Shown: positions 407-15,463 of the stretch, piece after piece
Layout of the letters: each line of letters starts with the position of its first letter
How positions within the stretch are numbered: the stretch's first letter is position 1
Origin: Halorientalis litorea
GTDB taxonomy: Archaea > Halobacteriota > Halobacteria > Halobacteriales > Haloarculaceae
Assembly: GCF_023028225.1 (NCBI RefSeq)
Contig: NZ_CP095482.1
Coordinates: 2,480,001-2,544,000 of the forward strand
Direction of reading: 5' to 3'
DNA: 64,000 bases
The notes under the pieces: model-generated
What the model saw: only the letters and a program-made list of their open reading frames with translations
Told to the model about the DNA's origin: nothing
Databases searched by the model: none
Program-made: the position numbers and the translations under genes

Positions 407-871
407 CTATTCGAGGAGGTCCTTCGCGGTGTCGTAGGAGTAGGTGAAGTCGGCCGCAACCTCGTCGCCACGGTAGTAGTCGACGAGACGGCGAATCTTC
501 GCCTCCGTGTTCTGCAAGGCGCGCTTGTTCTGGTGGTCGTTCGGGTTCTCCGCCATGTGTTCGCGGAGGCCGACGGCTCGCTCCATCAGGTTCCGCAGGT
601 CTTCGGGCAGGTCCGGTGCGGCCGCCTGCTCTTCGAGAATCTCCGTGACCTTCTTGTCCGTCGCGAGTTTGACGTTGGGAATCGGCGTCCCCTGTACGCC
701 CTCGTCACGGAGCTTCAGGCCGATTTCACTCGGGCTGTGCCCCTGCTCTGCTAGTTCGACGACGCGCTCCTCGATGGCGTCCGCGTCGACGTCGCTCCAC
801 TCCGGCGGTTCGTCTGCCACGGGCTTGTCCGAATCGGACGAGCCGCGGCGGCGTGTGTGCATTCGTGCCAT
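407..871 (-). CDS. rps15: 30S ribosomal protein S15 (archaeal type)
   Basis: The product is 154 residues, typical for archaeal S15 (the eukaryotic S13 homologue). The N-terminal half has the archaeal/eukaryotic extension with GHSPSEIGLKLRDEG followed by TPIPNVK. The C-terminal half is the three-helix S15 core that binds 16S rRNA in the platform of the small subunit, ending in KIRRLVDYYR. I chose the start giving MARMHTRRRG because archaeal S15 proteins begin with MARMH. The frame stays open 58 codons upstream, but that extension has no family counterpart. The stop codon abuts the ATG of the RecJ-like gene. Confidence 0.95.
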   Translation of the reverse strand: MARMHTRRRGSSDSDKPVADEPPEWSDVDADAIEERVVELAEQGHSPSEIGLKLRDEGVQGTPIPNVKLATDKKVTEILEEQAAAPDLPEDLRNLMERAVGLREHMAENPNDHQNKRALQNTEAKIRRLVDYYRGDEVAADFTYSYDTAKDLLE

Positions 872-1109
872 TGTTCTGATTGGAACCGCACTGGCTACTG
901 TCCGGCGTATCCGGCACTGCAGTCCGGCGAATCGCCGAAACACTACCGCAATCCCAAGCCGCCGAAAGGACTCCCCGAAGGGAGAGAGCGGCACTGTCGG
1001 AGTTGCGGCCGTGCTGTTCCCATCGTCACCTTCTCGCTCGCACACTTTACCGTTACTACTTCAGTCGCACACGTAACCCCGACTCGACGACTGATAATCG
1101 GCCAGCGCG

Positions 1110-1142: not shown

Positions 1143-2711
1143 ATGTCTCTATCGGGAATACTGCCGAACTTGAGGGGTGACGAGCGCGGGGTGACGAGCC
1201 CGCTGGGCTACCTCCTCGTTATCTCGATGGTGATACTCGCGGTCACGTCCATCGTCGTCATCGGGTCCTCCGCACTGGGAGACACACAGAGCCAGTCGGA
1301 ACTCCGCCGTGCCGAACACTCGATGACGCTGTTCGACTCCCGGGCTGCGATGGTCGCGCTGGGTACCTCGGACTCACAGACCCTCGATTTCGGGACGGAC
1401 AGCGGCCAGTTCTACACACAACCCGACTACGGCTGGATGGCTATCAAACACGTCGACTACGACAACGCCGGGAACACTCAAGAGATATACAACGAGTCGC
1501 TCGGGGCGATGGTCTACGAGAACGAGAACACCCGGATGGCGTATCAGGGTGGTGGCGTCTGGCGCCTCGACCGGGACGGGGCCGCGACGATGGTGTCGCC
1601 GCCGGAGTTCCACTACCGGCAGGCGACGCTGACGCTGCCGGTCATCCGCCTGCTCGGTGAGACGGCCGGGAGCGGGGCACCGTCCGTCACCGTGAGTTCC
1701 AGACAGCAGGCACGGCTCCTGTTTCCCAACCAGTCGGCCAGCTACAACACGCTCCAGTCGAACTTCACGAACCCCGTCGAGAACGGGACTATCTACGTGG
1801 ACGTTCACAGTCGGTACTACGAGGGCTGGGCACAGTACTTCCGCCAGCGCACTGCCGGTGACGTGCGGACGTTCCACAACAACAACACCGCCCGCATCGA
1901 ACTCGTCAGTCTCGGCGGGAGCATCGGGCGGTTCCAACTCCCCAGCGACAGCGGTGCGGGCAGCCAAGACGTCAGTGCCGTCGCGACGGGCCACCCAATT
2001 CAGAATTTCAACCTCACGCTCGAAGAGGGGGGCAACTCAAACGGTGAGAGTCACTGGTCGCTCTACAGCGTGACCGACAAAGACGAGTTCGAGATACACG
2101 TCGAGATGGACAACGGCGGTGGTTGTCGCCCGCTCAACCTCCAGTACTACTACCACAACACCTCGACCGGTACGTATCAGGAGTGGTCGACGAACCTCGA
2201 CCACACGTCTAGCTCGGCCTACCAGTGTACGGAAGACGGGAACAAGATAGACGAGTTGCACCTCAACCTGACGAGTACGACTGAGACGGTAGAGTACACC
2301 GACATCACGGTGAACGGGGCGGCCTCTGGCAAGTACTGCTTCGCAAGCTCCATCGACAACAACTCGCCGGACGAACCCGTGACGGTCGACGACCACGGAA
2401 CCTACGACGACCAAGCGACGAACCCAGAGTTCAACGCTGGTAGTGACCTCACGACGGGAGACACTGCGACTCTCAACTGGACGACCAACCACTACATCTC
2501 GAAGTTGGGGCAGGACTTCGAGTTCCAGGTCACGGACAGTCAGGGCGCGAGTGCCACGAACTGTGAGGGGAACACGAACAACAACGGCGGGTCACAGCTC
2601 GTCGACGAGGACCTGTCGTTCGGTGTCCTCGACTACGCCGAGGCGGAAGGCGCGCAGTTCATCACGTATCTGCACGTCACCGAAAACGAGGTCGAGGTCG
2701 ACTTCGACTGA
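1143..2711 (+). CDS. DUF7289-like pilin-like surface protein (module A, plus-strand gene)
   Basis: The product is 522 residues. It begins with a short charged stretch ending DERG (residues 13-16), then a single hydrophobic segment (about 18-42) opening with VTSPLGYLL. This looks like an archaeal type III (prepilin) signal, in which the prepilin peptidase cuts before the hydrophobic helix. The remainder is a long extracellular part rich in Thr, Ser and Asn with many N-x-S/T sequons. The motif W229-x-x-YF (EGWAQYF) recurs at the same relative place in three other proteins of this locus. The gene converges on the module A operon with 33 nt between stop codons. No enzymatic domain is visible. A role as a large minor pilin or surface subunit is inferred from the signal and context. 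Confidence 0.75.
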   Translation: MSLSGILPNLRGDERGVTSPLGYLLVISMVILAVTSIVVIGSSALGDTQSQSELRRAEHSMTLFDSRAAMVALGTSDSQTLDFGTDSGQFYTQPDYGWMAIKHVDYDNAGNTQEIYNESLGAMVYENENTRMAYQGGGVWRLDRDGAATMVSPPEFHYRQATLTLPVIRLLGETAGSGAPSVTVSSRQQARLLFPNQSASYNTLQSNFTNPVENGTIYVDVHSRYYEGWAQYFRQRTAGDVRTFHNNNTARIELVSLGGSIGRFQLPSDSGAGSQDVSAVATGHPIQNFNLTLEEGGNSNGESHWSLYSVTDKDEFEIHVEMDNGGGCRPLNLQYYYHNTSTGTYQEWSTNLDHTSSSAYQCTEDGNKIDELHLNLTSTTETVEYTDITVNGAASGKYCFASSIDNNSPDEPVTVDDHGTYDDQATNPEFNAGSDLTTGDTATLNWTTNHYISKLGQDFEFQVTDSQGASATNCEGNTNNNGGSQLVDEDLSFGVLDYAEAEGAQFITYLHVTENEVEVDFD

Positions 2712-2744
2712 GTGGGCTGCCGTTTCCCGGACTGCCCCGGCCCG

Positions 2745-3509
2745 TCACCGCTCTATCTCTATCTCTATCGGGTGGACCACGACGAACAGTTTGTCGCGGT
2801 TCTGGAGTTCACACTCGACCCTGTCGCGCTCGCCGGGAAGGGGCACCGTGGAACAGGACACGCCCGGTCGCCGGTCGAGGTACCGCTCCCACGTCTCGTT
2901 GTTCTGTGTCGTGACGTTGACCCACATCGACCCGCTGTCGTACACTGACGCGTCACCGCGGTGGATGATGTTGGGCGTCCCACGGACCGCCCGGATGCGT
3001 GCCGTACTCCCGCCGAACGACTCCGGCGGCCGCGCGATGGTCCGTACGATGGGGATGTAAGTTTGGTTCGGGTCGAAGTCCATCGGCGGGTACTCGACGA
3101 AGAGCCCGCCGTTTCGCTGGCTCCGGAGGACACCGCCGAACGTGTAGTCGATTGTCGTCCCCTCGTCGCGCACACTCCGCCAGCGCACGACCCGTGAGGT
3201 GACGTTGACGCTGAAGTTCGTCCCCGTTCCCGAGCGAGCACTGACGTTGATGTTTGCGACCTCGACTGTGTTCAACTGCGCGTCCTGCAGGTTTATCTCG
3301 GTCGCACGACTCGGCGCGCCTTCACGGTGGACGTCGTTGAGATTGTCCGCGAAGACGTCGAAGGCCCGCTCGGCGTTGTTGATTTGCTCGTCGTATCTGA
3401 CGTCTTCGAGCGTACTGACGCCGGCTATCGAGACGATAGCAACCGTCGTCGCGACGAGGCTGAAGATGAGGATGAACCCGATAACGTCGCTCACCGCGCG
3501 CTCGTTCAT
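2745..3509 (-). CDS. DUF7289-like pilin-like protein (module A, gene 5)
   Basis: The product is 254 residues, with NERAVSDVIGFILIF at the N-terminus. This is a typical haloarchaeal pilin-like start, with a short charged leader followed by one hydrophobic helix that packs into a pilus-like filament. The exposed part contains several N-x-S/T sites and the W207-x-x-YL motif shared with the other DUF7289-like proteins here. The C-terminus, HPIEIEIER, closely matches that of its module B counterpart (GIEIER). It is the last gene of the five-gene module A operon, and its start overlaps the preceding stop by 4 nt. A minor-pilin role is inferred. Confidence 0.8.
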   Translation of the reverse strand: MNERAVSDVIGFILIFSLVATTVAIVSIAGVSTLEDVRYDEQINNAERAFDVFADNLNDVHREGAPSRATEINLQDAQLNTVEVANINVSARSGTGTNFSVNVTSRVVRWRSVRDEGTTIDYTFGGVLRSQRNGGLFVEYPPMDFDPNQTYIPIVRTIARPPESFGGSTARIRAVRGTPNIIHRGDASVYDSGSMWVNVTTQNNETWERYLDRRPGVSCSTVPLPGERDRVECELQNRDKLFVVVHPIEIEIER

Positions 3510-3973
3510 CGACGCTCACCCCCTTCGAGACGGAGGTGGCCACCGGCCGTGTAGTTCACCATCACCTGTCCACCGGTAATCTCGGTACCGTCCACGGTGG
3601 TCCGGTTGCTGAACTCGACTCGAACCGTGACGTCCTGTTGCTGGGACCTGAGACGGACGTACGGGTCGGCTTGCTCGACGATGGCGACGGTGTAGCCCGA
3701 CCCGGCGACGGATTGGGGGAACGAGCGGCTAATCGAGACGGCCGTGTTCCGGTCGCCCGACTGCACGAGTCTGTCGGTCGCTTCCACGTCCGAGGCCAGT
3801 TGCTGCCCGATGACGCGAAGTTCGACCTCCGCGGCTTGCTCGCGCTGGTCGCTGACGAACCCGGCACCTGCGATGAGCAACCCCGTGACGAGAATCGTCG
3901 CGATGCCGATACCGAGCGTGTAGCTGAGAGTAATCGACTGCCCGCGCCTGTCGGACTCGAAGCGGTCAGTCAT
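3506..3973 (-). CDS. DUF7266-like pilin-like protein (module A, gene 4)
   Basis: The product is 155 residues. DRRGQSITLSYTLGIGIATILVTG forms a charged leader plus hydrophobic helix near residues 8-32. It is followed by a region (EQAAEVELRVIGQQLASDVEATDRL) that looks helical, like the pilin helix continuation, and then a small beta-rich domain with N-x-T sites. I placed the start at MTDRFES, which overlaps the upstream stop by 8 nt; six further codons upstream are open but belong to the overlap. Its module B counterpart has the same N-terminal plan but is three times longer because of a PKD domain. Confidence 0.8.
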   Translation of the reverse strand: MTDRFESDRRGQSITLSYTLGIGIATILVTGLLIAGAGFVSDQREQAAEVELRVIGQQLASDVEATDRLVQSGDRNTAVSISRSFPQSVAGSGYTVAIVEQADPYVRLRSQQQDVTVRVEFSNRTTVDGTEITGGQVMVNYTAGGHLRLEGGERR

Positions 3974-4910
3974 CGCTCTCACCCGGAGCAACCCGTAGCT
4001 CCGTCGCGTACGATATCACCTGATTGTTGTACGCCACGCTCACGTCGGCGGCGTAGACGGCCGGTTGGATGTAAGGCTGGTCGGCGACCCACGGGTTGTC
4101 GTCTTCCACGCCCGAGAAACTCTCGTTGACGATGGTGCTGTACGTCCCGTCCGTGATTATCTTCGCGTTCCTGAATTCGAGGGTGTCCGCTCCAGAAAGC
4201 CCTCTCTCACGGAACACGTCGACGTATGGACAGTCACTGTCGTCGACTGTTCCCGCCGAGACGTTCACCCAGAACGGTGTGGTAGAGTATCCGCAGGACC
4301 CGATGGTCACGCCGTTCTCGATGACCTCGACGTCGCCGGTGTCGGTCACGTTCAACTGCCACGTGTCGGTGCCGTTCGTGGCGACGACGCTGAACTCCGG
4401 GCTAGCGATGGGAAGGAGGCTCGTATCGACGTTCCCGACGTTCACCTGCAACTCACGCGCGCCGTCCGGATTCTGGGCTAGCACCCAGTTGTTCGCGTGG
4501 TCGTCACTCGTGAAGTTGCGACTCTCGTTCGTCTGCTGTACCAGCGTCCCCTCGTCGTACCGGCGGAGCGTGTCGTTGACAACCTGCCCGTCGAACAGTT
4601 GGTGTTCCGTCGCCACCGACGAGACGTTCTCGAACCCTCTGGTGAGGTTCCGGTCGACGGCGTCGTACGACGACGAGTTCGTCGTGTTGTACGTGTTGAC
4701 GTACGTGACCAACTTCTCGGTGGCCGTCTCGACGACGTTCGCGTGTGCGATGGCGTCGGAGGTGGTCGTGCTTTCGCTCCGGGTAGCGAGGTTCTCGGTG
4801 AAGATGACGGAGTTGAGCACCAGCGCGAGGCCGATGAACGCGACGGCGAGTGCGAACCCCGTGACCAGCAGTATCTGCCCTCGGCGGGTCCGGTCGCTCA
4901 GATTCGCCAT
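3966..4910 (-). CDS. DUF7261-like pilin-like protein (module A, gene 3)
   Basis: The product is 314 residues. RTRRGQILLVTGFALAVAFIGLALVLNSVIFTE (about residues 8-40) gives a charged leader and one membrane helix ending in the conserved-looking LNSVIFTEN. The rest is extracellular, Asn/Thr/Ser rich, with two Cys (around SCGY and DCPY) that could form a disulfide. The module B gene at 11250-12212 has the same architecture, including LNTVLFTST. Start and stop overlap both neighbours, which points to translational coupling. No catalytic motif is seen. Confidence 0.8.
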   Translation of the reverse strand: MANLSDRTRRGQILLVTGFALAVAFIGLALVLNSVIFTENLATRSESTTTSDAIAHANVVETATEKLVTYVNTYNTTNSSSYDAVDRNLTRGFENVSSVATEHQLFDGQVVNDTLRRYDEGTLVQQTNESRNFTSDDHANNWVLAQNPDGARELQVNVGNVDTSLLPIASPEFSVVATNGTDTWQLNVTDTGDVEVIENGVTIGSCGYSTTPFWVNVSAGTVDDSDCPYVDVFRERGLSGADTLEFRNAKIITDGTYSTIVNESFSGVEDDNPWVADQPYIQPAVYAADVSVAYNNQVISYATELRVAPGESDD

Positions 4911-5482
4911 ACGACCACCTCGACTCGGACGACGTTGTACGTCGGCGTGTCCGGCGCGTAGTCCGGTGCGTAGAAGTTCCCCGCCAGTGGTGTCGACGTC
5001 CGGGCACCGGTGTGGTCGTAGAGCCTATCGTCGTCGGTCAGGATGACCGTCTTGGCCGACCGGACGGCGTTGTCGCTCGGCTGCCCGCGGTACACCATCT
5101 CCGTGGTCCGCCGGGCGTCTGTCGGGGTGTAGTACGTGAGATAGACGTTGTACGCGATACCGCGCTCGCCGAAGGCCCGTTCGAGGCGGTCACCGAACGC
5201 GTTCGGGGGTGCCCGACTCGTGTAGAAGTCCTCGCCGCTCGAGTTGTAAAACCGGTCGTCAGACGCGTTCCAGAACAGGACGGCACGCTTCAAATCGCCG
5301 GCCTGTGCCGCACCCGCGAGGACGCCCTCGACGCTCGCCTGCTGTTGGTTCTCGACGTGCTGGCTCGACGTGCTCGCCGACAGCGGCGTGACGGCGGTCA
5401 TCTGGAGTGCGAACAGGACGCTCGTCAGCAACAGCAACCCGGCGATGATGGATTCGAGCGTGTGTACTTGTCCTCGGTCCAT
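4898..5482 (-). CDS. DUF7288-like pilin-like protein (module A, gene 2)
   Basis: The product is 194 residues. The start MDRGQVHTLESIIAG gives the haloarchaeal pilin-like signature R-G-Q-x-x-T-L-E followed by a hydrophobic helix to about residue 32. The Glu inside the first residues of the helix matches the conserved Glu5 position of type IV pilins that pairs with the N-terminus of the neighbouring subunit. The distal part has MVYRGQPSDNAV, closely matched by MVYRGEPSDNAV in the module B paralogue, which marks a conserved surface loop. I preferred ATG 5482 to the ATG six codons upstream because it directly begins the charged leader. Confidence 0.8.
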   Translation of the reverse strand: MDRGQVHTLESIIAGLLLLTSVLFALQMTAVTPLSASTSSQHVENQQQASVEGVLAGAAQAGDLKRAVLFWNASDDRFYNSSGEDFYTSRAPPNAFGDRLERAFGERGIAYNVYLTYYTPTDARRTTEMVYRGQPSDNAVRSAKTVILTDDDRLYDHTGARTSTPLAGNFYAPDYAPDTPTYNVVRVEVVVWRI

Positions 5483-5483
5483 G

Positions 5484-6074
5484 TTACCACATTTCAACAA
5501 CGAGCGTCGCGTCGGTGTCGTTCAATTCGACGACTCTCCGTGCGGTGACCGTCGTCCCGGAACGTTGCGGTGGCGCGGGGCCGATGGCCGTCCGGGTTTC
5601 GGAACTGTCACAATCGCCGCTGTCCTTCTCGACGAACTCGGGCGGTGAACTGTCCTCGTCCCAACAGAGGACGTTGCCCCCGTCGGCGTCGTTCGTCAGG
5701 TTCGACTCGATGCTCACGTTCGCCAACTGCGTGTTCCTGACGCCGATTCGCTCCGTCAGGTTGTTGCCGGTGAACCCACAGTACCCCGGGCTCGTGTCCT
5801 CGAAGAACTTCACGGTACACGTCGTGTTGACGACGTGGGGTGTCTTCGGGTCACCGAGCAGTCCTTCCGAGAGACTGTCCGCAACGCGATTTGCGGTGAC
5901 TATCTCCTCCTGTCCGCCTTCGACGAACGGGGAGATCGTACCCGGGATGAACAGCAGGACGGACGTCAGCGCGAGCAGGAAGATACTCACTCCGACGGCG
6001 AAATCGAGCGTTGTCTGTGCCCGTGTTCGACGACCAGTCCGCGCGCTCGACCCGACGACTCGCCGGTCGGACAT
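5484..6074 (-). CDS. DUF7287-like pilin-like protein (module A, gene 1)
   Basis: The product is 196 residues. A longer charged leader (RRVVGSSARTGRRTRAQ) precedes TTLDFAVGVSIFLLALTSVLLF, a hydrophobic helix with an acidic residue (D24) near its start, as in type IV pilins. The extracellular part has four Cys in pairs (TTCTVKFF, YCGF, VLCWDE, GDCD), suggesting disulfides, plus several N-x-S/T sites. It is the first gene of the module A operon and its stop lies 1 nt from the next start. The promoter should be in the 340-nt gap upstream, where CTTAAAATAG at about 6160-6170 (minus strand) is the best TATA candidate, implying a leader of roughly 60 nt. Confidence 0.78.
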   Translation of the reverse strand: MSDRRVVGSSARTGRRTRAQTTLDFAVGVSIFLLALTSVLLFIPGTISPFVEGGQEEIVTANRVADSLSEGLLGDPKTPHVVNTTCTVKFFEDTSPGYCGFTGNNLTERIGVRNTQLANVSIESNLTNDADGGNVLCWDEDSSPPEFVEKDSGDCDSSETRTAIGPAPPQRSGTTVTARRVVELNDTDATLVVEMW

Positions 6075-6416
6075 CGGATTAGGGACCCCCCGCTACCGAA
6101 TCCACAGTTTCTGCTCCGGCCAGTGTCGAAGCAATGTCCTCTCGAGGCACTTTTTCAGCTATTTTAAGATTGGTCAATGTGTTGCATAACCGTTGTGGCC
6201 GATTCATAACTAGGTCGTAATACGTCTCAGGGGCGTACTTTCGGCAGTTTAGCTTCATATTACTTGTGGCCAAAGATTTATACGGCCCTCTCCCGTCATC
6301 ATTCCTGATAATCGAAGACGTGCCGATAAACTCGCGGGCGTCGCGTGGTGCCATCTCTCGCTGTGGATGGCCCTTCGATGGGTTTAAGAAAACACACCGG
6401 ATACGGTGGATTACGA
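6075..6416. other. AT-richer intergenic gap between module A and tRNA-Ala
   Basis: This gap of about 340 nt is visibly poorer in G+C than its flanks. It should hold the module A promoter (minus strand) and the tRNA promoter (plus strand). A short minus-strand open frame (6079-6354) has no recognisable features. No repeat, insertion sequence or RNA gene other than the tRNA was seen. Confidence 0.5.
6383..6390 (+). promoter_or_regulatory. TATA-like element for tRNA-Ala
   Basis: TTTAAGAA lies 27-34 nt upstream of the mature tRNA 5' end, the expected distance for an archaeal tRNA promoter. Confidence 0.5.
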
Positions 6417-6488
6417 GGGCTCGTAGATCAGCGGTAGATCATCCCCCTGGCACGGGGAAGGCCCGGGGTTCAAATCCCCGCGAGTCCA
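6417..6488 (+). tRNA. tRNA-Ala, anticodon GGC
   Basis: A complete cloverleaf can be drawn: a 7-bp acceptor (GGGCTCG with CGAGTCC), a D arm GATC/GATC, an anticodon stem TCCCC/GGGGA enclosing CTGGCAC, a 5-nt variable region, a T arm CGGGG-TTCAAAT-CCCCG, and discriminator A. The anticodon is GGC, read as Ala. The acceptor contains a G3:U70 wobble pair, the established identity element for alanyl-tRNA synthetase. CCA is not encoded, and no intron is present. Confidence 0.95.
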
Positions 6489-6704
6489 CTCCCTCGTTTC
6501 CTCGCGTTGTCCCGCTCGTTCTACTCGCGGGACCCCCACGAGTCCATCGAAGCAGGTTTTCGACCGAGACTGCCGACCGTCGGACGCGACTGGGTGCTCC
6601 ATCGAGCCGTTCACGGACGGCAATTCCGTGAGTCCGTCGAGGGGTGTCGCTGAGTGGTCCCGGGGTAATTCGCCGGGCGTGACGGCCAGCGACCTCGCCG
6701 ATGG

Positions 6705-6714
6705 TTTTACATAA
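6705..6714 (+). promoter_or_regulatory. TATA-like element for the VWA pilin-like gene
   Basis: TTTTACATAA sits about 35-44 nt before the chosen ATG at 6749. This would give a short leader of around 10-15 nt. Confidence 0.45.
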
Positions 6715-6748
6715 CCCGATTGCCAAAAAGGATCCACTAATTACTCTT

Positions 6749-8944
6749 ATGGCCGATTACGGGTCCGCGGCGGGCGACGAACGGGGGGTATCGGAGGTAC
6801 TGGGGTTCGCACTACTCATCGGGATGGTGTCGATAGGCGCGCTGTTGGTGGTCGTCTACGGCTCCGCGTCCATCGAACAGGTCCAAGACCAGACGGACAA
6901 GCGGACCGTCGAAATCGCGCTTCAGGAAGTGGACTCACAGCTCACCTCGCTCTCGAATCAAGCGGACGTGACCCAAGTCGAGTTCGAGATGGCGAACCTG
7001 AATCCGGGACGGGTCGACATCATACGGGCCGGGCACGTGAACATCACGGTCAATCAAAACAAGACGTGTAGCCTCGGGGCGAGCTATCCGAGTCGAGACG
7101 GCGTGCCACTGACGTCGATTCGGTACGAGACACAGGACGAGACGGTCATCGCCTACGAGGCCGGCGGCGTGTTCAGACAGGAACGCTCGAACCGGAGTTC
7201 GACTGTCACGTCCCCGGATGCGGACGTTCAGAACGGTGTCATACAGTTACAGTTGCTCAACCTGACCGGCGAAATCGACGAGTCCCGGAACACGGCGTTC
7301 CTCAACGTGTCCTCGTCCAGTCGAGAGACCGACCGACTCAACGACCAACTGTTCCAGGGAGAGTGCGTGCGCCCGGACAACGTGACCCTGCAGGTACAGA
7401 GTACGTTCTTCAGGGCCTGGGGTGACTACTTCGAGGAACAGACGGACCGGCCGGTGCAGACCTACGAGAACAACCAGACGGTTCAGGTGTTCTTCGGACA
7501 GCAGGACCTCCCGGAGGCGACCAACGACGAACTCAACCGCGTCGTCAATCTCTCCGCGAGCGCGTCGTACATGAACGAGGTGAACGTCACGGCGGAGAAC
7601 ATCTCCATCTCGAAGAACGCGACGACGTCATACCGCGTCTCGACGCGCCCCATCGGGAACGGGTCGACCAGTATCGCCAACAAGACGACGTTCAAAACAG
7701 CCGACCTCGGGAACTCGAACCCCACCGATGTCGTGTACGTCCTCGACACGTCCGGGTCGATGTCCGGGACGAAAATAACCGACGCGAAGCAAGCGGCCAT
7801 CGACTCGCTGTCCGTTCTGAACACCACCGACCGTGCTGGCGTCGTCGAATACAACAGCAGGGCAGACATGCTCACCTCGGGTGGACAGTTCCTGACGAAT
7901 ACCCTTCGTGGCCCCAACAGCGTCGAGAGTACCATCAACGGACTCTCGGCGGGCGGTGGCACGTGTATCAACTGTGGGATTCGGAAGGCACTGGACATGT
8001 ACGCGACGAGTAGCAACCAGACGCGGAACAAGACCATTATCCTCCTCAGTGACGGCCGTAACGACGTCTCGTGGGAATCGACGCCCAACATGAACAGTAG
8101 AACGCGGGACATGGCACGCCGAGCGGCCGCCCAAAACGTCACTATCTACGCTGCCGGGTTCGGTACACAAGCCGACGTTAACGAGTGCCTATTGGGTGGT
8201 CGCGGAGTTAGCTGTTCCCAACCGGGGATTACCAACATCACCGGCGGCGAGTACAACTTCTCCAGTAGCCCCGACGAACTTCGCCAGTTCTTCAGGGATT
8301 CTGCCACGAACATCGTCGAGCAGGAGCGGATTACGAACGTCCCGCTGACGGTGAACGCCACTCGGAACAACGCCGTCCAGCCACCCTTTATCGCGGGTAA
8401 CGACGAGGACATCGCCCGCATTCGGAACGGTGGCCGCGCGTTCCCGAACGTCAACGACCCGACCGCACCGTCGCAGTTCCAACAGACGTTCATCGTTCGG
8501 AACGGTGACAGCGTGGAACTGAACGCGACGTATACGGCCTGTGAGGAGTACGAGACGGTCCCGTTGACGGCTGGCGGCACGCCGGTCGCACGGTGTGCCA
8601 ACGTCAGCAACGCCGACCTCATCGGCCCGGACCACATCGGCGTCTATCGTGACGGCTACGACGCAGAACAGGGGCCGCGCCCGCTCCTGACGGACAACTC
8701 GCCATCGTGGGACGACACGATGTACGAGAAACTCGAATCCGAGAACCTCCTCGACAGCAACAACCACACCCAGTTAGAGAGCAATCAGGTGCTGGTCGTG
8801 TTCAACTTTAGCGTCGAGAGTGGGCACGACTGGGACTGGAATCGGATGCCGGTCCTCTACGAGGTGGGCCTCTCGGAGGGCGAAGCACGGCCACCCGTGG
8901 GGTACCTCCAAATCCGGGACGTGCGGATAGAAGACGAATCCTGA
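6749..8944 (+). CDS. Pilin-like surface protein with von Willebrand factor A domain (module B, plus-strand gene)
   Basis: The product is 731 residues. The leader GDERGVSEVLGFALLIGM gives a type III signal (charged DERG, then a hydrophobic helix with Glu near its start), so it should be cleaved and inserted like a pilin. Residues about 45-320 resemble the DUF7289-like region of the 1143-2711 protein, including W224-x-x-YF. A VWA domain follows (about 328-525), with the metal-ion site D333-T-S-G-S, GGGTCINCG and LLSDGRND. A beta-rich C-terminal region with N-x-S/T sites ends the protein. I chose ATG 6749 because it opens the leader directly; 16 further codons upstream are open but unlike a leader. 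VWA domains bind proteins or matrix, so a tip adhesin role is a reasonable inference. The gene converges on the module B operon, 48 nt away. Confidence 0.8.
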   Translation: MADYGSAAGDERGVSEVLGFALLIGMVSIGALLVVVYGSASIEQVQDQTDKRTVEIALQEVDSQLTSLSNQADVTQVEFEMANLNPGRVDIIRAGHVNITVNQNKTCSLGASYPSRDGVPLTSIRYETQDETVIAYEAGGVFRQERSNRSSTVTSPDADVQNGVIQLQLLNLTGEIDESRNTAFLNVSSSSRETDRLNDQLFQGECVRPDNVTLQVQSTFFRAWGDYFEEQTDRPVQTYENNQTVQVFFGQQDLPEATNDELNRVVNLSASASYMNEVNVTAENISISKNATTSYRVSTRPIGNGSTSIANKTTFKTADLGNSNPTDVVYVLDTSGSMSGTKITDAKQAAIDSLSVLNTTDRAGVVEYNSRADMLTSGGQFLTNTLRGPNSVESTINGLSAGGGTCINCGIRKALDMYATSSNQTRNKTIILLSDGRNDVSWESTPNMNSRTRDMARRAAAQNVTIYAAGFGTQADVNECLLGGRGVSCSQPGITNITGGEYNFSSSPDELRQFFRDSATNIVEQERITNVPLTVNATRNNAVQPPFIAGNDEDIARIRNGGRAFPNVNDPTAPSQFQQTFIVRNGDSVELNATYTACEEYETVPLTAGGTPVARCANVSNADLIGPDHIGVYRDGYDAEQGPRPLLTDNSPSWDDTMYEKLESENLLDSNNHTQLESNQVLVVFNFSVESGHDWDWNRMPVLYEVGLSEGEARPPVGYLQIRDVRIEDES

Positions 8945-8992
8945 CGCCACGCCGCGACAGCCGTCCTCGCCGTGCTCCCTGGCTGTCGTCCG

Positions 8993-9799
8993 TTACCGTT
9001 CGATTTCGATGCCGAGTACGGCACGTCTGATGTAGACGACACCGCTCTCACCGACATCGCAGACGTACGTGTCGTCCTCGACACTCGACTCCTCCCACCC
9101 GTTCTCGTCACGGGTGAAGTACCGGCCCCACCCTCCATCGAACGTCGAGTTGATAGTCACGTTCAGTTGCGTCCCGTTCGCGGCCGTGTTGGCGGTGGCC
9201 CCGGTTCGGTTCTCTGGGTAGAGCAGACTGGAGTTGTGCTGCCGTCCGGAGATTCGGGCGACGCCACCGCTGACGATTCGCTCCGTGTTACCGGTCAACC
9301 GGACTACCGAGACGACGGCGTGGCCGTCACCACAAGTGAAGCCCGGTTCGACTTGCATGATGCTGCTGTTGCTGCCGATGGCACCCCGGAACGTCGCACC
9401 GCTCTCGTACCCGATGTGCTCGCCGCTAATCCGGTACTGCAGGCGGCGTATCTCCACGCTCGTGTTGAAGTTCGGTCCAGAGGACCGGTGTATTTCGAAC
9501 GTCATGTTCGGTCCGTCTACGAGTCGCAGACTCCCACTCCGGAGTTCGATTTCGCTGGTCCGCCGCTCGGCGGTGCCGGTTTCCAACTCCTTGAAGTTCT
9601 GTCCGAGCAGGACGAACGACCGCTCCGTGTTCGTGGCGAGTTCGGCCTCCCGGGCGTCTTCGAGCGCGCCGAACCCGAACGTCGAGACGAGTGCGACGGA
9701 CGTGATGATGACGGCGAACGCCAGCACGAACCCGACGAGGTCACTGACCGCCCGGTCGGACTCCGGTTCGCTGCCACTGTGCTTTTTTCGCCCAGTCAT
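8993..9799 (-). CDS. DUF7289-like pilin-like protein (module B, gene 5)
   Basis: The product is 268 residues. A charged leader (TGRKKHSGSEPESDRA) is followed by VSDLVGFVLAFAVIITSVALVSTFGF, a single hydrophobic helix. The exposed region has several N-x-S/T sites, two Cys (FTCGDG and YVCDVG) and W224-x-x-YF near the C-terminus. It ends with the sequence GIEIER, like the module A paralogue at 2745-3509. It closes the module B operon, its ATG overlapping the upstream stop by 4 nt. A minor-pilin role is inferred from the signal, the duplication and linkage to pilB/pilC. Confidence 0.8.
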   Translation of the reverse strand: MTGRKKHSGSEPESDRAVSDLVGFVLAFAVIITSVALVSTFGFGALEDAREAELATNTERSFVLLGQNFKELETGTAERRTSEIELRSGSLRLVDGPNMTFEIHRSSGPNFNTSVEIRRLQYRISGEHIGYESGATFRGAIGSNSSIMQVEPGFTCGDGHAVVSVVRLTGNTERIVSGGVARISGRQHNSSLLYPENRTGATANTAANGTQLNVTINSTFDGGWGRYFTRDENGWEESSVEDDTYVCDVGESGVVYIRRAVLGIEIER

Positions 9800-11253
9800 G
9801 GCAGTCCACCGACCTCCTCGGTGAATCGGGTCGTGTACGTCTCGCCACCGACGCGATAGCGGACACCGATGGTGAAATCGGGGTCGGCCGGGAGTCCCTC
9901 GACAGCACGGTACTGGATAGCGAGGTTGCCTCCGTCCTCTACGTCTATCTCGACCCGGTCTCGCGGGTCGAAGTCACACTCGTAATACGTTCCCGAACCG
10001 TAGATAGCGTACGCGGACATCGATACCCCTCCATCAGGAATTGTGAGGCCCTCACAGCCGAGGTCTTTCCGCCCGATATACACCTGTTCGTCCTCGGTAT
10101 CAGTGTAGTCGTTGTCCTCGTTTTCGTTCGTGTTGATACGAATCTCGGGGAAATAGTAGAAATTGCTGTTGATACAATTTCCGAAGAAATTGTACGAGGT
10201 ACAGACGTATCGGTCCTCTGCAATCATCTCTCCGCCTGTGCCTTCGGGGTCGAAGAATACACCGGTGATAGTGATGTCGTTGCTGTGAGTGTTCTCGAAC
10301 CGAACCATGATATCGTCGCCATCGAAGTCGACGTTTTGCCCGGCCCGCGTCCTGTCGTCGGCTGGCGTACGTGTGAGCGTGAGTGGTGCTAGTCCGGCGA
10401 CAGTGATGTTATGCGAGTGCCACGTCGAAGCGTTCTCTTCGTCGGTCACTCGCAAGGTCACGTTTTGGGGGCCGTAGTTCCCACCGCCGTACGTGTGGGT
10501 GGTCGTCGCGGTGTTCAGGTTCTGTTCCTCGTAGGTTCCGTCCCCGTCGAAGTCCCAACTGTAGTTCAGGCCGGGACTGGCGGGATTGTCGGGGTCCGGG
10601 TCCTCGGCATTGGCGGTGAACGTCACGCCCCGGTTGGTGTCGGGGTACTCGGGGTCGACGGTGAACGAGACGTTCGTCGGCGGGAGGTTCGTCTCCCCGA
10701 TGATGCTCCCGCCCGTTCGCTGCTTGGCAACGTCGCCGCCGATACCCAACCGCAGCGGCGCGTCAGTCGCCCCTGTCTCGTCGATGGTTCCGGGAGCGGA
10801 ACTCCCGTTCCATTCGAGACGGTAGTGGCTGGCACTCACCGTCGAGATGTTCACGTCCGTCTCGTTGACCGAGAGCGGGATGTTCCGAACCACGTCGAGC
10901 CGCGTGACCTCCAGTTCGAGACACGAGTTCGGCGTCGACCGTAGCTCGGTACACTCGGACCCGTTGACGATGCGGACGGAGTAAGACGACCCGGAGACTC
11001 GCTCCGGGAGGTCGACCTGTATCGTCGCCGACCCGTTCCCGGCCGACAGTCGCTGGAGTTGGGTTATCGTCTCGGCGAGTTCGTTCCCGATGGTGTCCAG
11101 TCCCGACTGTGCGGCGTACTCCTGCTGGTTGTTGAGGTACGACCCGCCCGCGACGAGCAAACCGGTGATGAGGATGGTCGTGATACCGATAGCGAGGATG
11201 TGGTTGACGAGCGACGCCGCCCCCCGTCGGTCCGTGCGTATCGTCCATCTCAT
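9796..11253 (-). CDS. DUF7266-like pilin-like protein carrying a PKD domain (module B, gene 4)
   Basis: The product is 485 residues. The N-terminal part (RTDRRGAASLVNHILAIGITTILITGLLVAGG) matches the module A DUF7266-like protein, which has only 155 residues. From about residue 190 a PKD-type immunoglobulin-like domain is visible: PPTNVSFTVDPEYPD, then LNYSWDFDGDGTYEE and NVTLRVTDEENAS, the WDFDGDG core being diagnostic. A further beta-rich region with four Cys and an acidic NENEDNDYTDTEDE stretch precedes the C-terminus. I placed the start at MRWTIRTD, overlapping the upstream stop by 4 nt, because the 32 upstream codons lie in the neighbouring gene and lack a leader. PKD domains usually mediate protein or carbohydrate contacts at the cell surface. 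Confidence 0.8.
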   Translation of the reverse strand: MRWTIRTDRRGAASLVNHILAIGITTILITGLLVAGGSYLNNQQEYAAQSGLDTIGNELAETITQLQRLSAGNGSATIQVDLPERVSGSSYSVRIVNGSECTELRSTPNSCLELEVTRLDVVRNIPLSVNETDVNISTVSASHYRLEWNGSSAPGTIDETGATDAPLRLGIGGDVAKQRTGGSIIGETNLPPTNVSFTVDPEYPDTNRGVTFTANAEDPDPDNPASPGLNYSWDFDGDGTYEEQNLNTATTTHTYGGGNYGPQNVTLRVTDEENASTWHSHNITVAGLAPLTLTRTPADDRTRAGQNVDFDGDDIMVRFENTHSNDITITGVFFDPEGTGGEMIAEDRYVCTSYNFFGNCINSNFYYFPEIRINTNENEDNDYTDTEDEQVYIGRKDLGCEGLTIPDGGVSMSAYAIYGSGTYYECDFDPRDRVEIDVEDGGNLAIQYRAVEGLPADPDFTIGVRYRVGGETYTTRFTEEVGGLP

Positions 11254-12212
11254 GGGTAGATGCTCAGGTTGTGCCTCCGCTCGTAGTCTATCTCGGTCGA
11301 GGAGTACGCCATGGTGACGTTCGTGCTCCAGATGGCCGGCACTTGGCACGGGTCGGTGAAGCCGGTCACCGCCGGGTCGCCGCAGAAGTCGTACGACCCG
11401 CCGAAGTTCGCGCTCACGTTCGACCGTGCCACGAGACTGTACCGACCGTTAGCTCTGCCGCCGTCAGATATCTCGACACTGTAGGGCGGGTCGAGGTTCT
11501 CGGTCGCGTTGAACGCACACTCGCTGTTGAAACTCTCTCCGTCGAGTACGTCGAGAAGCACCCGACCACGGACCGCGAAACACTGCACGTTCCCCGTGTT
11601 GGGGCCGTGTGTCCGCTCGGTACTGATGTCGACCTTCGTGGCTCCTCCTGTATTGTTACGCTGGATGCCAATGTCTACTGATTCGCTCGCGTTTCGTATC
11701 GTGATATTGAATTCGTCGCTGTTCATCCCTGAGACGTTCAGGTTGACGACGAACCGGCCAACCGCCACTCGGTCGCTGTTCTCGACAACCTCCCAGTCCG
11801 AGACACTGGGTGTCGTCGGTGACTCGAAGGTCCCGTCCTCGCTCTGGACGACGCGTTGGCCGTACGTGACGTTGTTGTACGAGACGTTCACGAACACCGG
11901 TCGGCTCACCGTGTAACTCTCGCGCAATAGCCGCGTGTAGTTCGTGACGTTTCTGACGACGCTGTCACGGAGTTGTGGCCGCGAGAAGTTCTTGTCCCGG
12001 TGGTTCATTCGGAGGACCAGCGACCGTGTGCCCTCCCGTGCCGTCTGGTCGAACCGGACGGCGTCGTCGCTGGCGTCGACCGTCACGTCCGTCGTCACCG
12101 TACTCGTGAAGAGGACGGTGTTCAGGACGACGGTGAGGCCGATGATGATGAGCGCGAGCGAGACGGCCCCGACGAGGATGAGTTGCGCCCTGCGGTCGTC
12201 GGTCGCTACCAT
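11250..12212 (-). CDS. DUF7261-like pilin-like protein (module B, gene 3)
   Basis: The product is 320 residues. VATDDRRAQLILVGAVSLALIIIGLTVVLNTVLFTS is a charged leader plus one membrane helix, parallel to the module A protein at 3966-4910. The extracellular part contains four or more Cys (QCFAV, ECAFN, FCGDPA, PCQVP), which could form disulfides, and many N-x-S/T sites. Starts and stops overlap both neighbours by 4-7 nt. No enzymatic motif is visible. Confidence 0.8.
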   Translation of the reverse strand: MVATDDRRAQLILVGAVSLALIIIGLTVVLNTVLFTSTVTTDVTVDASDDAVRFDQTAREGTRSLVLRMNHRDKNFSRPQLRDSVVRNVTNYTRLLRESYTVSRPVFVNVSYNNVTYGQRVVQSEDGTFESPTTPSVSDWEVVENSDRVAVGRFVVNLNVSGMNSDEFNITIRNASESVDIGIQRNNTGGATKVDISTERTHGPNTGNVQCFAVRGRVLLDVLDGESFNSECAFNATENLDPPYSVEISDGGRANGRYSLVARSNVSANFGGSYDFCGDPAVTGFTDPCQVPAIWSTNVTMAYSSTEIDYERRHNLSIYP

Positions 12213-12826
12213 ACTGTCAGGCGCACCTCCACGACGTTGTACACCGGTCCGTCCATGGCGTTCGGGATCGGGTAGTACCCTCGGTCCCCGGTGGCGTTCG
12301 TCCCGAGGTCGGTCAACTGCACCCGCGTCGCGTTCGGCCCCGACAGCGTCTGGTTGTCGTACAGCGTCACGCGGTTGGTCGCCGTCACGGCGTTGTCCGA
12401 CGGTTCACCACGGTACACCATCGGAAGCGTCTCCGTCCCCGACGACTCGTTCTGGTACCGGAGGACGATGTTGTACGTGCGGCCCCGTGACTCGAAGGTC
12501 TGATTCAACACCTCGCCCAGTTGTCTCGGTGGTTTCCGGTTCCCGTACCCGATTTCTTCGTTGACCGCGCCCACGAACGCGAGCCTGTTGCGCGACCAGT
12601 ACCGGACGTACTCGGAGAGGCCGAACGTCTCGTTCTGTGCCGTCAGCCTGAGCACGTCGTCGGCCTCTGTCTGGACTTGTGACCGTATCTCGGGGTCGAC
12701 AGTCCCGCCCGTCGTCGGCGTGATGATGATGGCCTGTATCGCAAAGAGGACTGCAGAGAGGATAACCACCGACCCGATGACGGCCTCCAAGGTGAACGCC
12801 TGTCCCCTGTCTTCGCCCGTCACCAT
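12206..12826 (-). CDS. DUF7288-like pilin-like protein (module B, gene 2)
   Basis: The product is 206 residues, starting MVTGEDRGQAFTLEAVIGSV. The R-G-Q-x-F-T-L-E pattern and the following hydrophobic helix mirror the module A gene at 4898-5482. MVYRGEPSDNAV is shared almost identically with that paralogue. I chose ATG 12826, which overlaps the upstream stop by 7 nt; seven further codons upstream are open but not needed. It probably forms part of a minor-pilin complex with its operon partners. Confidence 0.8.
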   Translation of the reverse strand: MVTGEDRGQAFTLEAVIGSVVILSAVLFAIQAIIITPTTGGTVDPEIRSQVQTEADDVLRLTAQNETFGLSEYVRYWSRNRLAFVGAVNEEIGYGNRKPPRQLGEVLNQTFESRGRTYNIVLRYQNESSGTETLPMVYRGEPSDNAVTATNRVTLYDNQTLSGPNATRVQLTDLGTNATGDRGYYPIPNAMDGPVYNVVEVRLTVW

Positions 12827-13302
12827 ACTTTCACCACCAAGCGACAACTCGGGTCACAGCGCGTCCGATTCGAGAGCGAAACGATACGCGCACGCGCCGC
12901 CGCTGGCTGGTTTCGGCTGTCTTTCTCCGTCGCGAGTGGCGTCCCGTCGACGGTTACCAGCGACCGACTGCCCCCTTCCCTGACGGTTATGTTGATGGCT
13001 GTCCCGCGTGTGAACCCATATTGGTCCCGGAGTTGCGACTGGTTCTGTGAGAGCGTCGCGTTGAGTTTTGTCTCGTTGAGAATATTCTCGCCCTCCGCCG
13101 TCGCGTGTTCTCGAATCAGGTCTTGGCTGAGCCTATCCGCTCGCATCCCGTCGCTGTCGTCTATCCCCGCGGTGAACGGTTCGAGATAACTCGGGAACAA
13201 CCCGAAGACGAACGTCACCGTGATGAGGAACAGCGAGATACCGAGCGCGAAATCCTGAAGCGTCTGCCCCTTCCTGTCACCCCTAAATGCTGACTAACTC
13301 AT
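12820..13302 (-). CDS. DUF7287-like pilin-like protein with in-frame TAG at codon 3 (module B, gene 1)
   Basis: The frame encodes DRKGQTLQDFALGISLFLITVTFVFGLFPS, the same leader-helix plan as the module A gene at 5484-6074, then a short extracellular region with two Cys near the end. The only well-placed start is ATG at 13302, correctly spaced from a strong TATA element, but it reads ATG AGT TAG: the third codon is amber. Between that stop and the hydrophobic helix there is no ATG, GTG or TTG. A GTG at 13218 exists, but starting there would cut the helix in half. The gene is therefore either inactivated, read through, started at a rare codon, or affected by a sequencing error. The downstream genes remain intact. 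Confidence 0.65.
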
Positions 13303-13429: not shown

Positions 13430-15463
13430 TCACCCGACGGCAATCCACGTGATGAGCGCGAACGTGGGCAGGATGACCGCGAACTTCACCCCCGAGATGA
13501 GGTCGACGTTCCGGATGTAGCCGCCGATGAACGACGACATGATGGCCTGCAGCGTCACTGCGTGGAAGAACAGCAGCGAGAGCAGTTCGGTGTCGACACC
13601 GCCACCGAAACTCTGTCCGCCGCCGGGGGCAGCACCACCGCCGCCACCGCCGCCGGTGTTCGCAAGCCCGGCCATCACGTCGAGGAACTGCGTCTTCAGC
13701 AGTGCCATGACGCCCAGCAGCGTCATGTAGGTCATGATGATGATGACCAACTGCATCCGCGTGCGGGACTTGCGCTCGCGGTCGATGTCGTCTTGATTCT
13801 CCGAGGCCTGTGCGGCCGTCGTCAGCACGTCCTCGATTTGACTGGACGCCTCCTGTGCCTTGCTGATGAGTTTGACCGTCCGGGCTAGCCGCGGGATGTG
13901 GTACTCGTTGTTGAACTCCCGCATCGCGTCCTTGAGGCTGGTCCCGTACTTGACCTTCGCGTACATCGTCTCGAAGTCCTCGGCCAACCGCCCCGAAGAC
14001 GTGTTCGAGACGGTGTTCAGCGATTCGAGGAGCGTCAGCCCCGTGTCGTTGGCACTCGATAGTTTCCGCAAATTCTCCGAGAGTTGTGTCACGACACCAC
14101 GTCGCGACCGGACGTTCCACTCGTAGAAGATGGTCAGCGGGAGGAAGTTGATATACAGCGGGACGTACACCCAGAAGAACGTCGACATGACTGGCTTACT
14201 GACCATCCCGTCGATGCTGAGCGGTGCGAAGCCGGCGACGACCGACCCCGCCATCACCACTATCGTCAGCGGAACTGTCAGGCCCAACACCACCGTCGGG
14301 TGGTCACGGAAGAAGATGTGTGGCTTCTTCAGTATTTGGCCCAACTCGTAGGACCGTTCTCCGCTCTTCACCTTGTCGAAGATGCCGTACCCGCCGGTGA
14401 AGTTCTCGACGAGGCCGAGGTTGAAGATACCCAGCCCCTCTTGGACGACCACGTCGTCGCGTTGCCCGTCCGGCGTGAGGTAGCCGTCGCCGATTTCGTC
14501 CTGCGTGACCGTCGACACCATCACGAGGAACCCGACCCCCGTGAGCGGAATCAGCCCGTACACCGTGCCCAGCAGGAGCATCTGCTGGGACTTGCCCATC
14601 ATCTGCATGATGACGAGGATGATGATGAGCAAGAGGGGGAACAGCGAGAGCGTCATGTACATCTCGCCGAACAGTTCCATCGTCTCTAGCACTTGCTCTT
14701 GCTCCTGCTTGGCGGTCCGCATGTGCTTGTCCTTCTGGTCTTCGAGGAAACTCGTCATGTCACCGCCGGAGTTGACGATGGAGAGCATGTCCGTCAGGAA
14801 CTGCGCGAGTTCGTCGCTCGGCGTCTGGAGTGCTTGGTTCCTGATGGCCGTCCGGTAGTCCGTATCGAAGTACTCGGTTTCGAGGACGAGCGACTGGAAC
14901 TCTTGGGCAACCTCGCCGTACGTGTCGTCGGCTTTGGCCATCGCCTGCAGGATTTCGAGTTGGTTCAACCCCCCGACCGACAGCGCGTACATGAACGAGA
15001 TGGAGTCCGACAGCAGGACGTTAATCTCGCGTTTCCGTCCGCCCGCCCGGAAGTACGGAATCGAGACCATCGACCCGAACCCGATACCGAAGCCGATGAG
15101 GCCGAAGACGATGCCGGTGATGAACACCAGAATCGGTATCTTCAGCGCGAGCAGGATTTCCGGAACCGACTCCACGGGAATCCCGAGCAGAGTCGGTGCG
15201 TCCTCGAGAAAGAGGACGAAGATGGCGTAGCCCAGAAGCGACCCCATTATCCACAACACGAGGCCCGCCAGCACGCCGACCCCCAACGCGCGCGCGACGA
15301 ACAACTCGACGTTCTGGGGCATACGCGCCTGCGCGAGTTTCTTCTCTACACCGGCCACGAAGTCGCTGTTCTCGTTGAACAGGTACTGATAGAGCGGGTA
15401 GAACGTGTCACCGAACGAGCCGCCGCCGCTGAACGACTGCCCGTCACGCGTGTCGAGACTCAT
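13430..15463 (-). CDS. pilC: PilC/TadC-type pilus platform membrane protein
   Basis: The product is 677 residues with about nine hydrophobic segments. Two type II secretion F-type domains can be seen: one near residues 150-280 (VLLSDSISFMYALSVGGL, then FLTDMLSIVNSGGD) and one near 465-590 (LSENLRKLSSANDTGLTLL, then ARTVKLISKAQEASSQIEDVL). This two-domain arrangement is usual for archaeal pilus assembly platforms, which anchor the ATPase and guide pilins. A Gly-rich stretch (about 599-617) separates the last helices. The start lies 1 nt after the pilB stop, so the pair is an operon. The gene symbol follows general haloarchaeal use; paralogue number cannot be assigned. Confidence 0.9.
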   Translation of the reverse strand: MSLDTRDGQSFSGGGSFGDTFYPLYQYLFNENSDFVAGVEKKLAQARMPQNVELFVARALGVGVLAGLVLWIMGSLLGYAIFVLFLEDAPTLLGIPVESVPEILLALKIPILVFITGIVFGLIGFGIGFGSMVSIPYFRAGGRKREINVLLSDSISFMYALSVGGLNQLEILQAMAKADDTYGEVAQEFQSLVLETEYFDTDYRTAIRNQALQTPSDELAQFLTDMLSIVNSGGDMTSFLEDQKDKHMRTAKQEQEQVLETMELFGEMYMTLSLFPLLLIIILVIMQMMGKSQQMLLLGTVYGLIPLTGVGFLVMVSTVTQDEIGDGYLTPDGQRDDVVVQEGLGIFNLGLVENFTGGYGIFDKVKSGERSYELGQILKKPHIFFRDHPTVVLGLTVPLTIVVMAGSVVAGFAPLSIDGMVSKPVMSTFFWVYVPLYINFLPLTIFYEWNVRSRRGVVTQLSENLRKLSSANDTGLTLLESLNTVSNTSSGRLAEDFETMYAKVKYGTSLKDAMREFNNEYHIPRLARTVKLISKAQEASSQIEDVLTTAAQASENQDDIDRERKSRTRMQLVIIIMTYMTLLGVMALLKTQFLDVMAGLANTGGGGGGGAAPGGGQSFGGGVDTELLSLLFFHAVTLQAIMSSFIGGYIRNVDLISGVKFAVILPTFALITWIAVG

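Follow-up and report, generated by a model that had tools for sequence, protein, structure and literature searches.

Two divergent modules of minor-pilin-like genes beside one predicted type IV pilus motor in Halorientalis litorea: candidate transferable cassettes of haloarchaea

Among the described haloarchaeal pilus systems the closest to the locus considered here is the PilB4-type locus, for which Makarova, Koonin, and Albers (2016; PMC4858521) described a pilin set of its own beside the ATPase/TadC genes, a minor pilin (arCOG02911) of variable length, about 250–550 aa, that is “prone to duplications”, and an independent evolution of ATPase/TadC and pilins. In Haloferax, as described by Legerme and Pohlschroder (2019; PMC6491452), PilB3-C3 can replace PilB1-C1. 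The bacterial parallels are the Myxococcus xanthus type IVa pilus (T4aP), whose clusters 1–3 each encode four minor pilins and a PilY1 tip protein for one machine with one major pilin (PMC7541494), the Myxococcus Kil/Tad pilus with interchangeable Tip complexes and four paralogous minor-pilin clusters with variable domains (PMC12075869), and Streptococcus sanguinis PilB, a modular pilin in which a VWA domain is grafted onto a pilin module (PMC8179133). The present analysis concerns a 64-kb stretch of the Halorientalis litorea chromosome (NZ_CP095482.1, positions 2,480,001 to 2,544,000; hereafter the window; assembly total 3.2 Mb), which carries two six-gene modules, A and B, of minor-pilin-like genes next to the pilus motor genes pilC and pilB.

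According to the comparative data presented below, each module is probably a transferable cassette of minor-pilin genes that serves one archaeal type IV pilus motor, and A and B would belong to two old lineages, not sisters of each other, that have been retained next to one another. Both are placed between rpsO and pilC-pilB (Table 1), and in each of them a single plus-strand gene, the facing gene, converges on five overlapping minus-strand genes of the families DUF7287, DUF7288, DUF7261, DUF7266, and DUF7289. This common layout had been proposed in an earlier sequence-only reading of the window and agrees with the arrangement of open reading frames and with Pfam, which assigned the families named in that reading to all 12 genes (11 pass the cut-off; B4 falls just below). 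The tRNA gene expected between the modules was identified by ARAGORN, and Pfam confirmed that pilB-pilC adjoin module B only.

The conservation of the cassette was studied in 180 haloarchaeal loci together with the window, with gene layouts derived from profiles built on the window proteins. In this text loci and genomes are designated by L and G numbers, respectively. One hundred loci of up to 20 kb included 60 from Haloarculaceae (L038–L097), hand-picked in favour of genomes with at least two cassettes, and 40 from other families (L098–L137), about one per genus, and are not a random sample; a further 80 loci (L138–L217), anchored on pilB and drawn from 80 of 329 relatives, cannot tell how often cassettes stand alone. 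The class-wide DUF7288 alignment contained no stretch conserved enough to serve as an anchor for the genome scan, and pilB was used instead. The resulting 178 cassettes correspond to 169 distinct DUF7288 sequences, nine of which occur twice through overlapping locus sets.

All five operon genes in the single order 7287-7288-7261-7266-7289 were found in 163 of the 178 cassettes, and in the other 15 the genes detected stand in that order too: eight miss DUF7287 only through the distance limit (the layouts show it), four of one family are without a detected DUF7261, and three are cut by locus ends. The genes thus recur as a unit; their occurring singly would have refuted the sequence-only reading. 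DUF7288 was detected in 185 of the 194 genomes sampled across the class and is also present in the Haloferax volcanii laboratory strain; at least two copies were found in 27 of 40 Haloarculaceae genomes versus 4 of 154 other genomes of this sample; in a larger sample of the family at least two DUF7288 matches were present in 43 of 86 genomes (two of the 43 count a partial match). As separate observations, L053 (G235) carries a run of three cassettes, one of which is separated from the other two by tRNA-Ala, and in L049 (G050) two oppositely oriented cassettes flank a 2,296-residue CARDB-rich frame.

Comparison of pairs of Haloarculaceae loci shows replacement of the cassette as a whole block beside a nearly identical motor. 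In L055 and L095, two loci of one genus, PilB/PilC are 98.1% identical and the cassettes 22.5%, with each of the six genes at 20–27%; the flanks are joined by three long DNA matches of 94–97% identity, and homology stops about 130 bp past tRNA-Ala and restarts at the last codon of pilC. The same pattern was observed in L063/L067 (motor 93% versus cassette 31%) and L046/L039 (86% versus 27%), and the cassettes were less than 45% identical in 66 of the 164 locus pairs whose PilB/PilC were at least 75% identical. The pairwise identities of the six cassette genes vary together (Spearman 0.35–0.77, n = 36 loci) and are decoupled from those of pilBC (-0.11 to 0.26); within Haloarculaceae (n = 27) the corresponding values are 0.44–0.74 and 0.06–0.30.

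The trees of motor and cassette proteins also differ. PilB+PilC of the window, L046, L039, L041, and L044, all of one genus, form a single clade with support 100, while a single clade of the cassettes beside these motors was rejected (p 6e-4), the cassettes falling into two distant groups. Conversely, the motor genes of seven VWA-type loci were rejected as one clade (p 7e-34). Among the groups submitted to the approximately unbiased (AU) test, A plus B represented the claim of the sequence-only reading and the Halorientalis group was taxonomic, while the L055/L057/L095 and VWA groups were picked after the identities or trees had been seen. Cassettes of the B lineage, with a VWA gene, also stand beside pilBC in Haloprofundus marisrubri and Haloplanus ruber (Haloferacaceae), and the pilBC genes of these two species group with those of the family designated f4 (nearest-pair support 1.0); by these placements the VWA lineage has crossed families. 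A full VWA/PKD cassette of the B lineage (support 0.999) was found on a 437-kb plasmid of Salinigranum marinum (L218, NZ_CP100462.1), where no PilB match at E<=1e-100 was detected; other haloarchaeal plasmids bear cassettes together with pilB and pilC.

The relationship between the two modules of the window was examined by BLASTP, and all six A/B pairs were found to be homologous, in accordance with the paralogy proposed earlier: 4e-20 for A1/B1, 2e-23 for A2/B2, 1e-18 for A3/B3, and 1e-35 for A5/B5. Four of the six pairs reach well past the N-terminal helix, to which the relation could have been confined, and the alignments of A4/B4 (3e-8) and A6/B6 (3e-7) are short, covering only 84 and 61 columns, respectively. 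The same layout, the adjacency, the homologous pairs, and the recurrence of the tandem arrangement in several genera would all fit the suggestion of the sequence-only reading that one cassette was duplicated locally, in tandem, within this lineage. Nevertheless, in the tree of concatenated operon proteins the two modules are not each other's closest relatives, which would be the mark of recent tandem duplicates, and a single clade of A-type and B-type cassettes was rejected (p-AU 7e-7); moreover, the A and B proteins of the window are 21–37% identical over aligned columns, while each is 39–64% identical to its counterparts in G233. A local duplication is accordingly very improbable, and of the “duplicated cassette” the paralogy and the common layout stand while the local copying does not. 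In the same tree B groups with 13 other cassettes (support 99), all of which are accompanied by a VWA gene, and A groups with 25 others, rpsO or tRNA-Ala(GGC) being present in the fetched stretch of 23 of these 26.

A simple origin of the two-cassette arrangement is suggested by gene order. In three families (L093, L110, L126, L137) a single cassette stands in the order rpsO, tRNA-Ala, cassette, pilC, pilB, versus rpsO, A, tRNA-Ala, B, pilC, pilB in the window and other Haloarculaceae; on the simplest view, therefore, A is an extra cassette that has come to lie between rpsO and the tRNA gene. On the same view the site before pilC is one that cassettes of several lineages enter and leave. The idea that module A is a decaying copy was not supported by A-type pairs of other loci, in which the ratio of nonsynonymous to synonymous substitution rates (dN/dS) over the six genes was 0.08–0.35 in L050/L064, 0.19–0.27 in L038/L043, and 0.26–0.63 in L070/L074. 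For pilB and pilC in four pairs the values were 0.06–0.11.

Besides the tandem arrangement, A and B were observed 20–72 kb apart, near tRNA-Ala(GGC), in G113 (L056, L057), G058, and G218. Here the similarity to the tandem arrangement ends at the tRNA-Ala 3' end (L055 versus L056), a stretch matching this 3' end is present at the B side (L057 versus L095), and close to the junction on that side G113, G058, and G218 have matches to tyrosine integrases, weak in G058. Because of these similarity breakpoints and integrase matches the separated loci look like an element integrated into the tRNA gene. In another locus, L095 (oriented 3.6–4.8 kb), a decayed module A was seen, where part of the facing gene and DUF7287 are left and about 4.2 kb between them is absent versus L055.

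The link of the cassettes to the motor is based on proximity and co-occurrence. Among loci not found through pilB, pilC was in reach of 34 of the 69 Haloarculaceae cassettes and of 38 of the 40 from other families, which establishes a genetic link to the PilB ATPase and PilC/TadC. The window-type PilB (E<=1e-150) was found in 186 of the 194 genomes; DUF7288 and this PilB occurred together in 183, both were missing in six, and two had the cassette only and three PilB only (Fisher 3e-8), so that the co-occurrence which the sequence-only reading had proposed as a check was obtained. Its further suggestion of two cassettes for one motor of this kind agrees with the single PilB, at the same threshold, in 39 of the 43 Haloarculaceae genomes with at least two DUF7288 matches. 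The window PilB has 846 aa with T2SSE at 418–627 and a pilin set beside it; the PilB4 type is expected to have extra N- and C-terminal domains beside its own pilin set, and the window protein is a candidate member of this type.

Still, module A may work with another assembly ATPase and be functionally unrelated to the motor beside B. The genome contains six T2SSE genes, the two cassettes of a genome are often far apart, and PilB3-C3 can rescue a pilB1-C1 deletion in Haloferax as described in PMC6491452, so that ATPases need not be specific. Against such a separation, the order rpsO-A-tRNA-B-pilC-pilB is found in several genera; A-type is the nearest cassette before pilC, at 0.4–2.6 kb and with no B between, in six loci (L070, L074, L143, L146, L147, L160); and all seven sampled genomes of the Haloarculaceae genus g12 are without both DUF7288 and this PilB. 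On balance a separate ATPase for module A seems quite unlikely.

The pilin-like nature of the products was assessed from their N-termini. A cleavage-like motif followed by a hydrophobic helix was found in 169 of 170 DUF7287, 177 of 178 DUF7288, 173 of 174 DUF7261, 173 of 175 DUF7266, and 171 of 175 DUF7289 proteins, and in 96 of 111 facing-gene products, versus 4–6.5% of shuffled segments; thus, a class III signal peptide, characteristic of archaeal minor pilins, is predicted in 86–99% of the members per family. An acidic residue stands at +5 in 154 of 170 DUF7287 and at +6 in 165 of 178 DUF7288 proteins and is mostly absent in DUF7261 and DUF7266. Ordered minor pilins have tip subunits that lack Glu5, and the acidic-residue pattern of the cassette recalls, by analogy and without proving it, such an order.

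The facing gene begins with the DUF7289 domain and ends with one of several payloads. In 120 cassettes these were DUF7305 (38), DUF7308 (34), VWA (20), CARDB (11), a short form (10), CARDB+VWA (3), DUF7305+VWA (1), and others (3). The remaining 58 cassettes have no second DUF7289 gene that faces or adjoins them and do not enter these counts; 52 of the 58 come from loci other than the Haloarculaceae ones chosen by hand. The labels come from own profiles seeded on Pfam hits, and Pfam concurred in seven of seven DUF7305-labelled frames checked; on 20 facing-gene examples it shows the payload domains, DUF7289 not being listed in two very large frames (L079, L049). Both trees could be compared for the 84 cassettes that had complete pilB and pilC and an assigned payload: the cassette tree requires 12 payload changes and the pilBC tree 23, versus about 51 on average after shuffling, and on this measure the payload tracks the cassette better than the motor. 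Within the VWA lineage (19 cassettes) VWA is the facing or next gene in 18, and L061 has it on the other side; a DUF7266 frame of at least 430 residues is found in 18 of the 19 versus 2 of 159 other cassettes, and B3 is enlarged in the same way as the DUF7266 proteins of this lineage generally.

B1 combines a pilin leader, helix, and VWA domain in one protein, as expected of a modular pilin with a VWA adhesin, and a DxSxS motif is visible in its translation. Its model (predicted local distance difference test score, pLDDT, 79; predicted template modelling score, pTM, 0.52) shows a 56-residue helix (15–70) followed by a beta-rich domain, with a VWA fold spanning about 316–525 (best Z 23.8). The VWA part matches the pilus proteins S. 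sanguinis PilB (solved structure 7b7p), RrgA, Mfa5, and SpaC, the first three of them among the Foldseek matches, together with many other VWA proteins. The DUF7288 model (AlphaFold, pLDDT 91) consists of helices followed by a beta sheet; comparison of the DUF7288 profile with solved structures gave one chance-level match (E 0.72), and the globular part is weakly like sensor domains and ribosomal folds (best Z 6.2, within chance range).

This last likeness would suit a sensory or secretion pseudopilus (e.g., for DNA uptake or protein export) in place of an adhesive pilus, and the minor pseudopilins of type II secretion also occur in fixed sets. The VWA matches of B1 to pilus proteins point the other way, and VWA, CARDB, and PKD payloads are common in adhesins. 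Taken together, a pseudopilus appears unlikely.

Several points weigh against the reading of both modules as minor-pilin cassettes for one motor. Two of them concern the fibre shaft. The PilB4 locus was assigned a predicted major pilin of its own, arCOG03926, in PMC4858521, and the cassette may therefore make the shaft too; and DUF7261 is doubled in tandem in L089, L163, and L169, as major pilins may be, both copies being nearly full length versus the profile. Along with the keeping together of five different pilin-like genes, these points favour the main rival explanation, in which the cassette is a complete pilus subunit set, one operon protein is the major pilin, and A and B make two whole fibres. 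A separate shaft could, however, be supplied by the PilA-type proteins of the genome (13 Pilin_N matches, of which the 11 that pass the cut-off all lie outside the window) or, on plasmids of Haloferax mediterranei, Halobaculum, and Salinibaculum, by Pilin_N genes near the cassette loci, and two whole fibres are considered less likely.

The other adverse points are of different kinds. Foldseek and VIA-align list no solved pilin for the DUF7288 model, an absence that shows nothing either way. The trees were built on strongly diverged proteins with a quick search and a single-matrix model, and support for the A group was 19 in the tree of concatenated operon proteins and 0.98 in another, larger tree. 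The L070/L074 pair indicates weaker constraint on A-type genes than the two other pairs (0.08–0.35), four of the 43 multi-cassette genomes (G196, G206, G214, G232) have two PilB of the window type, and module A could use one of the five other T2SSE ATPases. Nor is the payload constant in a lineage: in the larger tree the A group includes DUF7305 (15), DUF7308 (13), and a short form (1). Finally, a defect at B6 may impair module B in this genome. The sequence-only reading had taken B6 as open from the ATG at 13302, which was not confirmed: the apparent start (13294–13302, minus strand) reads ATG AGT TAG, so that this frame is closed and an in-frame stop stands just upstream of the gene. The first ATG, GTG, or TTG past the TAG is a GTG at 13218, already within the helix, whereas in most of the 18 relatives compared a usual start codon precedes the helix. 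A non-standard start would account for this, as would a broken gene or an error in the sequence.

Table 1. Features of the window from rpsO to pilB (positions of the 64-kb stretch)
Feature	Position	Strand	Evidence
rpsO (ribosomal protein S15), flank of A locus	407..1045	-	Pfam S13/S15 N 2e-22, S15 2e-15; synteny; start position provisional
A1 facing gene, DUF7289 pilin-like domain + DUF7308 payload, 522 aa	1143..2711	+	Pfam DUF7289 3e-22, DUF7308 4e-35
A2 DUF7289 pilin-like, last gene of operon A	2745..3509	-	Pfam 1e-59; BLASTP to B2 2e-23
A3 DUF7266 pilin-like	3506..3973	-	Pfam 9e-25
A4 DUF7261 pilin-like	3966..4910	-	Pfam 3e-7, 31.3 bits, cut-off 27
A5 DUF7288 pilin-like	4898..5482	-	Pfam 9e-66; AlphaFold model pLDDT 91
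A6 DUF7287 pilin-like, first gene of operon A	5484..6074	-	Pfam 9e-40
tRNA-Ala(GGC) between modules; often neighbours A-type cassettes in Haloarculaceae	6417..6489	+	ARAGORN
B1 facing gene, DUF7289 + VWA, 731 aa, candidate modular tip adhesin	6749..8944	+	Pfam DUF7289 7e-21, VWA 7e-17
B2 DUF7289 pilin-like	8993..9799	-	Pfam 3e-41
B3 DUF7266 + PKD-like domain	9796..11253	-	Pfam DUF7266 4e-20; PKD_4 1e-5, 26.0 bits, just below cut-off 27
B4 DUF7261-like	11250..12212	-	Pfam 2e-5, 25.6 bits, below cut-off 27; BLASTP to A4 3e-8
B5 DUF7288 pilin-like	12206..12826	-	Pfam 2e-59
B6 DUF7287 pilin-like, no usual start before helix	12820..about 13293	-	Pfam 1e-31; translation
pilC/TadC-like membrane platform of motor	13430..15463	-	Pfam T2SSF 6e-27
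pilB assembly ATPase of motor, putative PilB4 type	15465..18005	-	Pfam T2SSE 3e-31, PilB3_C 1e-7, PilB3_N 0.001 (below cut-off)

Two further observations concern the ATPases. In L103, L104, L106–L108, and L117–L120 the PilB frames have 1,139–1,438 aa versus about 790–930 in most Haloarculaceae loci seen, and the facing gene is missing at most of these loci. Elsewhere in the window genome a 663-aa DUF7289 frame adjoins another T2SSE ATPase (G000:C1:2056869-2057564 and 2059983-2060579).

The probable cassette function can be pictured as follows. The five pilin-like proteins (DUF7287, DUF7288, DUF7261, DUF7266, and DUF7289), made from one overlapping operon, would be cleaved by prepilin peptidase. 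If they act as minor pilins do in bacteria, they would start fibre assembly at PilC as a priming/tip complex, or else build a short fibre. The modular pilin encoded by the facing gene would be placed at the tip, with its C-terminal payload (VWA in B, DUF7308 in A) displayed outside the cell and binding a target. PilB-PilC beside module B would drive both modules, and a motor served by two cassettes would then produce fibres with two kinds of end; such “alternative tip complexes for one motor”, as the sequence-only reading put it, fit the comparative evidence.

In a broader sense there could be a class-wide haloarchaeal pool of interchangeable pilus tip cassettes, where the conserved motor accepts whichever cassette arrives by recombination or plasmid and genomes with two or three cassettes switch among them, an extension proposed only tentatively. 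If it holds, strains would acquire different surface specificities (mating partners, surfaces, viruses) in the way of sugar-coat loci and serotypes. The data suggest that the business end of surface fibres is exchangeable like a tool head, and five Pfam families of unknown function would gain a joint role. The cassette swaps at 86–98% motor identity are a natural series, a ready-made experiment on one motor taking different subunit sets. Should the cassettes determine surface specificity, they may also matter for mating, biofilms, and virus attachment in haloarchaea.

In comparison with the known systems, the locus resembles the PilB4-type locus in that its ATPase/TadC genes adjoin a pilin set of their own, and arCOG02911 fits DUF7289, with which it is probably identical; unlike that locus as described in the part of PMC4858521 consulted, it shows a block-replaced six-gene unit, more than one cassette for a motor, cassettes of A type that stand without pilBC, and a series of payloads. 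With the M. xanthus T4aP it shares several minor-pilin clusters per machine, while the protein families and the domain of life are different and the tip protein there, PilY1, is not a pilin (PMC7541494). The Kil/Tad pilus is a bacterial Tad system, and block replacement beside the motor genes is not described in the part of PMC12075869 consulted. Like S. sanguinis PilB (PMC8179133), B1 joins a pilin-like module to VWA, but its domain is DUF7289 and it is encoded by a separate facing gene. The literature search found no paper naming DUF7261, DUF7266, DUF7287, DUF7288, or DUF7289 and no description of cassette swapping in archaea. In summary, several minor-pilin clusters per machine (Myxococcus), VWA modular pilins (Streptococcus), and the PilB4-type locus are already known, and what is new, as far as the literature was searched, is that in archaea a six-gene cassette is the unit of exchange and comes with a series of payloads.

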